Origin: an uncultured Alphaproteobacteria bacterium
GTDB lineage: Bacteria > Pseudomonadota > Alphaproteobacteria > HIMB59
Length of the DNA: 64,000 bases
Assembly (NCBI GenBank): GCA_902599405.1
Contig: CACKFO010000006.1
Location: 1-64,000 of the forward strand
Direction: 5' to 3'
Shown here: positions 1 through 2,967 of the stretch, in pieces
Layout of the letters: each line of letters starts with the position of its first letter
How positions within the stretch are numbered: the first letter of the stretch is position 1
The notes under the pieces: generated by a model
The model's input: only the letters and a program-made list of their open reading frames with translations
Database searches by the model: none
What the model was told of the DNA's origin: nothing
Program-made: the position numbers and the translations under genes

Positions 1-383
1 TTTCTAATGATTTAATAAATAAAAATATCAAATGTTCACTTCCCAAAGTAATATCAAAAGGATCTTCTTTAAAGTACTTTGAATATAACCCTCATAGCCC
101 AAATTTGGAAAAAGGTTTTGGTGGTATTATGGAACCTAAGGGTGAAAAGACATTAGATCCTGATATAATTATTGCATCATGCTCTGCATTTAATGAAAAA
201 GGTTTTAGGGTAGGCTATGGAGGAGGTTTTTTTGATAGAACTATTGAAGAATTGAAAAAAAAAGGAAATTTAAAAACTATTTTAGCTGCTTTTGAAATTC
301 AAAAAACCAACTATAATTTTCAGGAGAGTTTTGACCAAAAAGTAGATTATATTTGTTCAGAACAAAAAATCTATTCTTTATGA
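1..383 (+). CDS. 5-formyltetrahydrofolate cyclo-ligase, C-terminal part
   Basis: The reading frame is open from base 3 to a TGA at 381-383, so the gene starts left of the window and only about 126 residues are visible. The protein carries the family's glycine-rich signature GYGGGFFDR near 213-239, preceded by GFGGIMEP, which matches the GIPEP region that binds the folate and ATP. The enzyme converts 5-formyl-THF to 5,10-methenyl-THF in the cytoplasm. Its stop overlaps the ATG of the next gene (ATGA at 380-383), so the two are probably translationally coupled. The identification is firm; the start is not visible. Confidence 0.9.
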   Translation, partial: SNDLINKNIKCSLPKVISKGSSLKYFEYNPHSPNLEKGFGGIMEPKGEKTLDPDIIIASCSAFNEKGFRVGYGGGFFDRTIEELKKKGNLKTILAAFEIQKTNYNFQESFDQKVDYICSEQKIYSL

Positions 384-1195
384 ATTTTTTAGTTATAGGA
401 GATGTTGTAGGAAGATCAGGTAGAACAGCTCTCAAAGAAAATTTAAAAAAGATACAAGATCAATTCAAAATTAGCTTTACAATAATTAATGCTGAAAACT
501 CAGCTGGTGGTTATGGACTTACAGGAAAAATTTACGAAGAGCTTATAAGTTGGGGGGCTAATGCTATCACTTTAGGAAATCATGCTTGGAAACAAAAAGA
601 GATCATAGAATATATGGATCAAAATCCAGATCATAATATTATCAGACCTTTAAATTTCGAAGTTGGATCTCCTGGTAGGGGGTTTAAAATTTTTACACAT
701 AAAAATGGAAAAAGAATATTGGTAAGCCAAGTTCATGGTCAAACATTCATTGACCTTCCCTTAAGTAACCCTTTTCATTCTATTGATACACAACTTTTAT
801 CTATAATTAATGACCATGAAATAGATTATTCATTTTTAGAGGTACATGCTGAGGTGACATCTGAAAAAAATGGTATAGCTCAGAATTATGACGGAAAATT
901 TACAGCAATATATGGGACTCATGTTCATATTCCAACCTCAGATGCTAGAGTTTTAGAAAAAGGCACTTGTTTTCAAACTGATATTGGCATGACAGGAGAT
1001 TATAATTCTGTTATTGGTATGAAAAAAGAAAACGCCATCAAAAGAATGAGAACTGGGTCAAACTCTCACAGACTGGAACCAGCAGAGGGATTGGCAACTA
1101 TTTCTGGAGCGGTCATTACTACAAATGTGGGGGATAAAAATTCAATTCAATCTATTCAAATAGGTGGTGTTTTGGATAGTAATTTATTATCTTAG
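380..1195 (+). CDS. YmdB/TIGR00282-family metallophosphoesterase
   Basis: A 271-residue protein if started at the ATG at 380, which overlaps the previous stop. A further in-frame ATG at 353 lies inside the upstream gene and would put a non-conserved extension before the GDVVGR motif. Visible metal-site residues are D8 in GDVVGR, E39-N40 in NAENSAGG, N67-H68 in TLGNHAW, H156 in VHAEVTSEK and H181/H183 in GTHVH. Characterised relatives are 2',3'-cyclic nucleotide phosphodiesterases (YmdB of Bacillus). In alphaproteobacteria the gene often sits between the folate cyclo-ligase gene and yebC, as here. The cellular role in this organism is unknown. Confidence 0.9.
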   Translation: MNFLVIGDVVGRSGRTALKENLKKIQDQFKISFTIINAENSAGGYGLTGKIYEELISWGANAITLGNHAWKQKEIIEYMDQNPDHNIIRPLNFEVGSPGRGFKIFTHKNGKRILVSQVHGQTFIDLPLSNPFHSIDTQLLSIINDHEIDYSFLEVHAEVTSEKNGIAQNYDGKFTAIYGTHVHIPTSDARVLEKGTCFQTDIGMTGDYNSVIGMKKENAIKRMRTGSNSHRLEPAEGLATISGAVITTNVGDKNSIQSIQIGGVLDSNLLS

Positions 1196-1198
1196 CTC

Positions 1199-1936
1199 AT
1201 GGCAGGACATTCAAAATTTAAAAATATTCAATATCGTAAAGGTGCTCAGGACAAAAAAAGAGCAAAACAATTTGCAAAAATTGGAAGAGAAATTCAAATA
1301 GCCGTTAAGATTGGAGGAACCGACCCAGAGTCCAATCCAAGATTGAGACTAGCAATAACAAATGCTCGAAGTGTAAATATGCCAAAGGATAATGTAGATA
1401 GAGCTATTAATAAAAATAATTCTGAAGCTTCTGATTATTCAGAAGTTCGTTATGAGGGGTATGGTCCATTTGGAACAGCTTTTATAGTTGAGGCCTTAAC
1501 AGATAATAAAAATAGAACAGCTTCAGAAATTAGATCTATTTTTTCAAAGAATGGGGGGAATTTGGGCGAGACTGGAAGTGTGAGCTTTAATTTTAACAAA
1601 GTAGGAGAAATACAAATCAAAAAAGAAATAGATGATGGTGCACTAGAGGATTTACTCGACCATGGTTTAGAGGATTACAATACAGATGACGATGTAACAT
1701 ATCTTTATTCATCTTTTGAGGAATTAGAATCTTTTGAGAAAATACTAGTAGATAAAAAGTTTGACATTGAAAGTGCAAATATTATTTGGAAGCCAAATTT
1801 AACTGTAAAAATTGAAAAAAAGGAAGATCTTGACAAGCTTATTAAATTAAATGAAGAGTTAGAGGATAACGATGATGTTCAAAATTGTTTTTCAAATCTT
1901 GATTTTGATAGTGAACTTTTAGAGGTTAATAATTAA
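1199..1936 (+). CDS. yebC: YebC/PmpR-family regulator (TACO1-like)
   Basis: A 245-residue protein with the hallmark N-terminus MAGHSKFKNIQYRKGAQDKK, the NMPKDNVDRAI segment and the YEGYGPFGTAFIVE motif of YebC proteins. Family members were described as DNA-binding regulators. More recently, YebC and its mitochondrial homologue TACO1 have been linked to translation of difficult peptide stretches. The ATG begins 3 nt after the YmdB-like stop, and the next gene begins 2 nt downstream, so it is inside an operon. Length and motifs are normal. Confidence 0.95.
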   Translation: MAGHSKFKNIQYRKGAQDKKRAKQFAKIGREIQIAVKIGGTDPESNPRLRLAITNARSVNMPKDNVDRAINKNNSEASDYSEVRYEGYGPFGTAFIVEALTDNKNRTASEIRSIFSKNGGNLGETGSVSFNFNKVGEIQIKKEIDDGALEDLLDHGLEDYNTDDDVTYLYSSFEELESFEKILVDKKFDIESANIIWKPNLTVKIEKKEDLDKLIKLNEELEDNDDVQNCFSNLDFDSELLEVNN

Positions 1937-1938
1937 TA

Positions 1939-2265
1939 ATGCCTGATAAAGCTTGGAAAAATAGGGAAAGACTTGTAGCAAAGTTTTTTGGAGGCATGAG
2001 AAATGCCCTTAGTGGGATTAATTCAAAAGTTACTCATTCAGATGTAATTCACGATAATTTATTCATTGAGTGTAAATTAAGAGCTAAACATACAGCTATT
2101 AAATTATGGGATTATACAAAATCTTTAGCAGACAAGGAAAAAAAGACCCCAGTCATTGCATTATGTGAAAAAAATAGACCTGGTTTTTGGATAATGGTAC
2201 ATTCAGATGATTTTGAGAAAGTCTCTAAAGAACTTAAAAACAAAAATATAATTGATGAAGAATAG
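1939..2265 (+). CDS. Small PD-(D/E)XK nuclease-like protein (possible Holliday-junction resolvase)
   Basis: A 108-residue basic protein. Its layout fits a minimal PD-(D/E)XK nuclease: E10 in an N-terminal helix, D35 in SDVIHDN, then E44-C45-K46 in LFIECKLR (D-X(8)-E-X-K), followed by a hydrophobic strand TPVIALCEK. Small proteins of this layout include archaeal Hjc-type resolvases and phage endonucleases. It sits between yebC and tolQ, where alphaproteobacteria usually carry ruvC-ruvA-ruvB. A junction-resolving role is therefore an attractive inference, not something shown. It could also be a general nuclease of unknown substrate. Gaps of 2-3 nt on both sides place it in the operon. Confidence 0.6.
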   Translation: MPDKAWKNRERLVAKFFGGMRNALSGINSKVTHSDVIHDNLFIECKLRAKHTAIKLWDYTKSLADKEKKTPVIALCEKNRPGFWIMVHSDDFEKVSKELKNKNIIDEE

Positions 2266-2268
2266 TTT

Positions 2269-2967
2269 ATGGAAGAAGTAGTCAACTTAGCATCCCTTGA
2301 AGGTTCGGTAGATTTCTCAATGATGGGAATGTTTCTGAAATCTGACTGGGTTGTAAAATTTGTAATAATATTGCTAGTGATTTTTTCAATTCAATCTTGG
2401 AAGACAATCATTCAAAAAATTTTGTTAATAAATAAACTTAAGAAAATATCAAAAAAATTTGAAAACCATTTTTGGTCTGGGGTATCTTTAGATGAACTAT
2501 ACAAACAAATTGACGAATTTGATCAAGAAAGTTTCTCAAATATATTTAGAAATATTATGAATGAATATGAAAAATCTTTAATTCAGAAAAATAAAATAGA
2601 CTCAGCTTTTATTCAAAGACTTTATACCTCTCTTGATTTAAGTATTGCTGTTGAGGATACAAATTTAAATAAAGGATTGTCTTTTTTGGCATCCTCAGGA
2701 TCTGTAGCACCTTTTATAGGATTATTTGGAACAGTTTGGGGAATCATGAATAGTTTTCAAGCTATAGCAATTGCTCAAAATACTAATCTCGCTGTAGTTG
2801 CACCCGGTATAGCAGAGGCTCTATTTGTAACTGCTTTGGGCCTTTTCGTTGCTATCCCCTCAACCGCTTACTACAACCTCATAACTTCTAAAATTGATAA
2901 CTATTTGTCAGAGGCTGAGAGTTTTGGGAAGGACTTAGTAAATATAATTTCACGCCAAGTTAAATAA
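2269..2967 (+). CDS. tolQ: Tol-Pal system proton channel subunit TolQ
   Basis: A 232-residue inner-membrane protein with three predicted membrane segments: about residues 26-45, 135-160 and 175-200. The second and third contain the conserved LFGTVWGIMNSFQAIA and GIAEALFVTALGLFVAIPS stretches of the TolQ/ExbB/MotA family. With TolR it forms the proton-driven motor that energises TolA. It is followed within 4 nt by tolR, and the complete tolQRAB-pal-cpoB order downstream separates it from an ExbB paralogue. No ybgC thioesterase gene precedes it. Confidence 0.95.
   Translation: MEEVVNLASLEGSVDFSMMGMFLKSDWVVKFVIILLVIFSIQSWKTIIQKILLINKLKKISKKFENHFWSGVSLDELYKQIDEFDQESFSNIFRNIMNEYEKSLIQKNKIDSAFIQRLYTSLDLSIAVEDTNLNKGLSFLASSGSVAPFIGLFGTVWGIMNSFQAIAIAQNTNLAVVAPGIAEALFVTALGLFVAIPSTAYYNLITSKIDNYLSEAESFGKDLVNIISRQVK

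Follow-up and report, generated by a model that had tools for sequence, protein, structure and literature searches.

The window, which here means the whole 64,000-nucleotide stretch of DNA analysed, comes from an uncultured alphaproteobacterium of HIMB59, a group given in PMC10308929 as the former AEGEAN-169; its source genome amounts to 1.26 Mb in 34 contigs and is 89.5% complete. Close to the beginning of the window an open reading frame encoding 108 amino acids lies between yebC and tolQ (Table 1), starting 2 bp past the yebC stop codon and ending 3 bp ahead of the tolQ start codon. A first-pass annotation, made from the letters alone, had given the frame exactly these coordinates and had noted that nothing but a 108-residue protein separates the two neighbours, and both the position of the frame and the Pfam matches of the flanking genes bear this out.

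Table 1. Genes around the yebC-tolQ interval and codons of the proposed active site (positions are those of the window)
Feature	Position	Strand	Evidence
ymdB-like gene	380..1195	+	Pfam PF13277; upstream of yebC
yebC	1199..1936	+	Pfam PF01709, PF20772; upstream neighbour of the 108-aa gene
Hjc-like resolvase gene (putative), 108 aa, PHROG 2002 family	1939..2265	+	profile match, fold models, profile comparison
E10 codon, proposed catalytic residue (Hjc E9)	1966..1968	+	profile alignment, conservation
R21-x-x-x-S25 codons (Hjc R25-x-x-x-S29)	1999..2013	+	profile alignment, conservation
D35 codon, proposed metal-binding residue (Hjc D33)	2041..2043	+	profile alignment, conservation
E44-C45-K46 codons, (D/E)xK motif (Hjc E46-x-K48)	2068..2076	+	profile alignment, conservation
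tolQ	2269..2967	+	Pfam PF01618 (MotA/TolQ/ExbB family); downstream neighbour of the 108-aa gene

That yebC is commonly followed in alphaproteobacteria by ruvC, ruvA, ruvB and then tolQ, as the annotation held, agrees with 20 RuvC-bearing loci of our own choice, in 17 of which yebC lies directly upstream of ruvC and in nine of which the full order yebC-ruvC-ruvA-ruvB-tolQ is found. Downstream of ruvB, tolQ is present in those nine loci and also in one (L219) that is without yebC, and ymdB too lies upstream in five of the yebC-ruvCAB-tolQ loci (L223, L226, L234, L237 and L238). For RuvC-containing organisms generally, PMC3403352 describes yebC and ruvC as sharing an operon in about half. Since yebC-ruvCAB-tolQ occupies the interval in other alphaproteobacteria, three genes have here been exchanged in place for one. 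The same arrangement is seen in a second lineage elsewhere in the class, family f25 (four genomes of 0.8-1.1 Mb), at all four loci, with proteins 61-65% identical to that of the window.

The ruv genes are not found elsewhere. RuvC (PF02075) was detected neither in the source genome nor in any of the 52 genomes of its genus or the 162 of its order, among the latter one assembled as a single contig at 99% completeness; a RuvC hidden elsewhere in the order is rejected on this count, the model being one that finds RuvC in 353 of 385 alphaproteobacteria sampled across the class and in 8 of 14 named controls. RuvA (TIGR00084), for which the search covered the genus, is absent from all 52 genomes, and RuvB (TIGR00635) exceeds its cut-off in none of these 52 and in none of 25 carriers of the 108-residue homolog. 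Weak RuvB matches in the genus (at most 35 bits, with the cut-off at 299) were read as other AAA+ ATPases because none reached the cut-off, which was passed by all five RuvC-bearing comparison genomes. The annotation had asked whether a normal ruvCAB lies elsewhere in the genome, and on these searches it does not. In the class sample, all nine carriers of the homolog (two lineages, and so not nine independent events) are without RuvC, which is present in 353 of the 376 non-carriers. Seven of these carriers are recorded as having no RuvC match, and the other two, G412 and G490, do not figure among the matches. Among the RuvC-less non-carriers, 23 in number, the 13 named by the class-wide search were tested for RuvB, and four had it over the cut-off. 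The other nine (G209, G258, G272, G278, G287, G294, G330, G333 and G357) have neither RuvC nor RuvB over the cut-off nor the 108-residue gene, G258 being a single contig that is 100% complete; because these nine manage without the gene, loss of RuvABC alone does not make this substitute necessary.

Within the order the gene is a fixture. A homolog occurs in 44 of the 52 genomes of the window's family, all of one genus, and in 10 of the 10 that are at least 90% complete; across the order the count is 135 of 162 genomes, with all 20 near-complete genomes and all seven genera represented. Completeness is 50-87% in the genomes listed as having no match. Of 62 loci retrieved from the window's family and a second one in the order, 61 share the gene order YmdB-YebC-gene-TolQ. 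The remaining locus, L069, has no tolQ downstream. Contig 14 of genome G124 holds the locus twice, as L070 and L069, the latter being the second copy, and by our reading of the sequence the nuclease frame of L069 continues into an orotate phosphoribosyltransferase-like protein, so that either a misassembly or a real duplication with fusion may account for it. The order's YmdB-YebC-gene-TolQ locus also appears on a contig titled 'Gammaproteobacteria bacterium TMED225' (L144), a title that is probably wrong. With pN/pS of 0.06-0.16 (the window gene against eight loci of the genus), the 108-residue gene is under strong purifying selection; it is a real, conserved gene, and a chance reading frame is excluded. 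When the window is compared with that second family of the order, the nuclease is 66-76% identical, YebC 49-56% and TolQ 45-50%, making the nuclease the most conserved of the three. One position stands apart: residue 59, next to the invariant D58, is tyrosine in the window protein (codon 2113-2115), where the 20 further relatives aligned from the order have D or E, which reflects either a true variant or a sequencing error.

As to what the protein is, it matches PHROG 2002, a family annotated as 'Holliday junction resolvase', with an E value of 3.2e-8 over residues 3-102 (profile positions 16-120 of 130), as do 32 of 37 aligned relatives. Other models gave little. RuvC (PF02075) and the archaeal Hjc model PF01870 do not match the window protein at E values up to 10, and PF01870 is matched by one of the 37 relatives, at an E value of 0.15; RecU and VRR-Nuc (Pfam) match neither the window protein at E up to 10 nor the 37 relatives at E up to 1; RusA-like PHROG 244 does not match the window protein and is matched by six of the 37 relatives. 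The sole Pfam offering, transposase PF12762 (E 0.12, below the cut-off), was set aside as chance, as were sequence hits to PDB entries (E at least 0.29; profile E 1). There is no NCBIfam match for the window protein and none in PADLOC, and a reading as a defence system was dropped on the latter result.

Two AlphaFold models of the protein (pLDDT 85.1 and 86.1) predict a core consisting of a helix, a strand (residues 41-47) bearing E44-x-K46, a helix (53-66), strands at 70-76 and 84-86 and a further helix, with a short strand opened by D35 preceding; the models thus place D and (E/D)xK on successive strands, as in the alpha-beta core of PD-(D/E)XK nucleases. In Foldseek searches, Archaeoglobus Hjc fills the first seven PDB rows for the first model (E 0.024-0.038) and the first six for the second, the top-row E value across both models being 0.014-0.038, while VIA places Hjc 1gef first for each (Z 7.5, rmsd 3.7, 88 residues aligned; Z 7.3, rmsd 3.6, 86 aligned), followed by cap-snatching and tRNA-splicing endonucleases at Z 5-6. 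A library of viral structures returned 10 predicted proteins at E values of at most 0.001, with several lower rows named Holliday junction resolvase. The nuclease core for which the annotation had proposed a structure comparison is therefore present in the models, with archaeal Hjc ranked first; the match of the modelled fold to Hjc is moderate, and because the Z values lie below 8 it is by itself no proof.

Profile comparison against four Hjc/Hje chains (E 5.8e-4) brings E10, R21, S25, D35, E44 and K46 into register with Hjc E9, R25, S29, D33, E46 and K48, and a local rerun gave a score of 32.0, while 200 column shuffles peaked at 17.7, none reaching 28. The acidic and lysine residues that the annotation had picked out as having the spacing of small PD-(D/E)XK nucleases (E10, D35 and E44-x-K46) are all where it placed them. 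Across 66 aligned relatives there is no variation at E10, D35 or K46, and conservation at E44 is 90% or higher. Six distant phage relatives (L085, L086, L088, L089, L091 and L092) have S-C-K where others have E-C-K, and so lack the second acidic residue at its usual position. As the protein does not match the PF01870 model it is not filed in that family; on the evidence of profiles and models it would be Hjc-like in its working while standing outside PF01870.

Scans of viral contigs yielded 24, 25 and 80 loci with homologs, some of them in common. A large terminase lies at or near the homolog in 93 of 116 viral loci, often 0-8 bases off, and none of the 116 carries ymdB, yebC or tolQRAB, on which ground contamination of the viral contigs by host DNA was rejected. 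One locus (L073) reads, by names we gave from the sequences, putative small terminase, nuclease gene, large terminase, portal protein. Isolated phages hold few members of the family (2 of 50,697 records), and the nearest relatives of the gene are terminase-adjacent genes of uncultured marine phages. A protein of Bacteroides phage BS162P1 that is annotated 'DNA endonuclease I-HmuI' (L095, 5323-6315) ends C-terminally in the same nuclease domain, and looks like a resolvase fused to a homing-endonuclease-like part.

Taken as a whole, the evidence makes it probable that a phage-family, Hjc-like resolvase displaced RuvABC in situ and that it would cleave junctions. The product would be a small nuclease that depends on metal and belongs with the Hjc-like PD-(D/E)XK enzymes, and its gene would have come to occupy the place of ruvC-ruvA-ruvB in the ancestor of the order, streamlined marine alphaproteobacteria of the HIMB59/AEGEAN-169 type. 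RecA, presumably present, would make the four-way junction, RecG would move it, and the nuclease, presumably a homodimer with a site of E10, D35, E44 and K46 in each subunit, would introduce paired nicks, upon which two duplexes could separate without RuvABC. RecG, the other junction-moving helicase, is retained in the carriers, being full length in 22 of 25, cut by contig ends in two (G000 and G053) and not found in one (G030). A replacement of this sort seems feasible because a variant of the SPP1 resolvase G44P partly replaces RecU in vivo (as described in PMC3485210), and the terminase-side position of the phage copies fits with the role that the same source gives T4 endonuclease VII, that of debranching DNA for packaging. 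The annotation's suggestion of a non-homologous replacement of the resolvase in a streamlined genome is thus supported by the lack of RuvC in all 162 genomes, the fold ranked closest to Hjc and the shared site. Beyond that suggestion, RuvA and RuvB are gone too, the exchange extends to the whole order and one further lineage, and the family is one common to bacteria and phages.

Several other readings deserve weight. A PD-(D/E)XK nuclease of similar fold could have taken the ruvCAB site without the function and act instead on flaps, forks or damaged or foreign DNA, as the moderate fold match and the presence of other PD-(D/E)XK nucleases at Z 5-6 would allow, along with the account in PMC3864405 that phage resolvases accept a wider variety of branched DNAs than their bacterial counterparts do; we think this unlikely, however, given that Hjc appears both in the top structural rows and in the motif register, that the family profile is named for Holliday junction resolvases, that RuvABC is absent exactly at the gene's site and that no defence family matches. 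Still more improbable, in our judgement, is that another enzyme such as YqgF (RuvX) resolves the junctions and the 108-residue gene is accessory. PMC1193525 does raise the prospect that YqgF serves in rare genomes without RuvC and RecU, and the nine RuvC-less, RuvB-less genomes evidently do without the gene described here, but in what that source says of YqgF it co-occurs with RuvC or RecU in most genomes and had at the time no resolvase activity shown, and retention of the gene in every near-complete genome of the order, as well as its better conservation between the two families than that of YebC and TolQ, fits poorly with an accessory role.

A different question is the direction of transfer. 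That the gene was bacterial in origin and was taken up by phages seems rather doubtful to us, though less so than the two readings just given. In a gene tree of 81 rows and 99 columns, phage L080 clusters with the f2 bacteria (99/90), as a bacterial origin would have it; the exchange at the locus predates the split of f1 from f2, and a tree of neighbour genes joins f25 to f1 and f2 at 98/98, although these genes are linked and several rows differ in composition. (Entry to that tree required two or more of the five genes, and 12 of the 20 RuvC-bearing loci qualified.) Against this, the bacterial groups f1, f2 and f25 fall within phage diversity in the gene tree, where phage sequences alone make up the deepest branches (L084-L096, L213-L215); the nearest phage is 74-84% identical, against 69-77% for the nearest bacterium of another family, and is the closer of the two in all 10 bacterial rows examined (of 30); and the phage copies travel with one terminase lineage. 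A topology test also rejects f1, f2 and f25 as a single clade (p 0.0145, on 99 columns, which are few), but does not reject one uniting f1 and f2 (p 0.237, or 0.493 without the long row L060). Both one old displacement with later exchange and two displacements remain compatible with these trees. Returning to displacement of RuvABC by the phage-family enzyme, we put forward its fullest form tentatively, as an account with somewhat less than an even chance of being right: a resolvase from a phage packaging module displaced the whole of RuvABC in place, on one or more occasions and perhaps independently in each of two alphaproteobacterial lineages, the order may since have finished recombination with RecG and one viral-type junction nuclease, and alleles may still pass between cells and phages.

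Each of the known systems resembles this one in part. Members of PHROG 2002, the family whose profile the window protein matches, are phage genes beside the terminase, whereas here free-living bacteria keep the gene as a fixed part of their chromosome, at the ruvCAB place. Archaeal Hjc (1gef, 2wcw; PF01870) is the top match of the predicted fold and shares the register of E, R-x3-S, D and E-x-K, but the protein here falls below detection by the Pfam Hjc model, has a shorter motif spacing and is found in bacteria and phages. RecU of Firmicutes and Mollicutes offers, as set out in PMC1193525 and PMC3403352, a precedent in which a non-orthologous enzyme has replaced RuvC throughout a large clade; it takes over from RuvC only, however, acting alongside RuvAB, and its gene mostly lies elsewhere, unlike the present gene, which sits in the place of the missing RuvA and RuvB. 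RusA and SPP1 G44P are likewise phage resolvases able to substitute, the latter as the variant that partly complements a recU mutant, but they belong to another family (PHROG 244), and theirs is laboratory complementation rather than natural displacement of RuvABC. The main text of the HIMB59 genome paper (PMC3815206) contains neither 'ruv' nor 'Holliday', and our search of the open-licence PMC literature, in which papers on HIMB59 could be crowded out, gave no report of a phage-type resolvase replacing RuvABC.

RuvAB and RuvC or RecU are described in PMC1193525 as core bacterial recombination genes with little horizontal transfer, and the known substitute RecU leaves RuvAB standing. Here RuvC is lost throughout an order, and RuvA and RuvB wherever they were tested, with an enzyme of a phage family at the vacated site. 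The order thus offers a natural test of the post-synaptic functions that cells require, and an instance of core repair machinery common to cells and phages. It also makes testable the question of whether one small resolvase, together with RecG, may serve in place of RuvABC.
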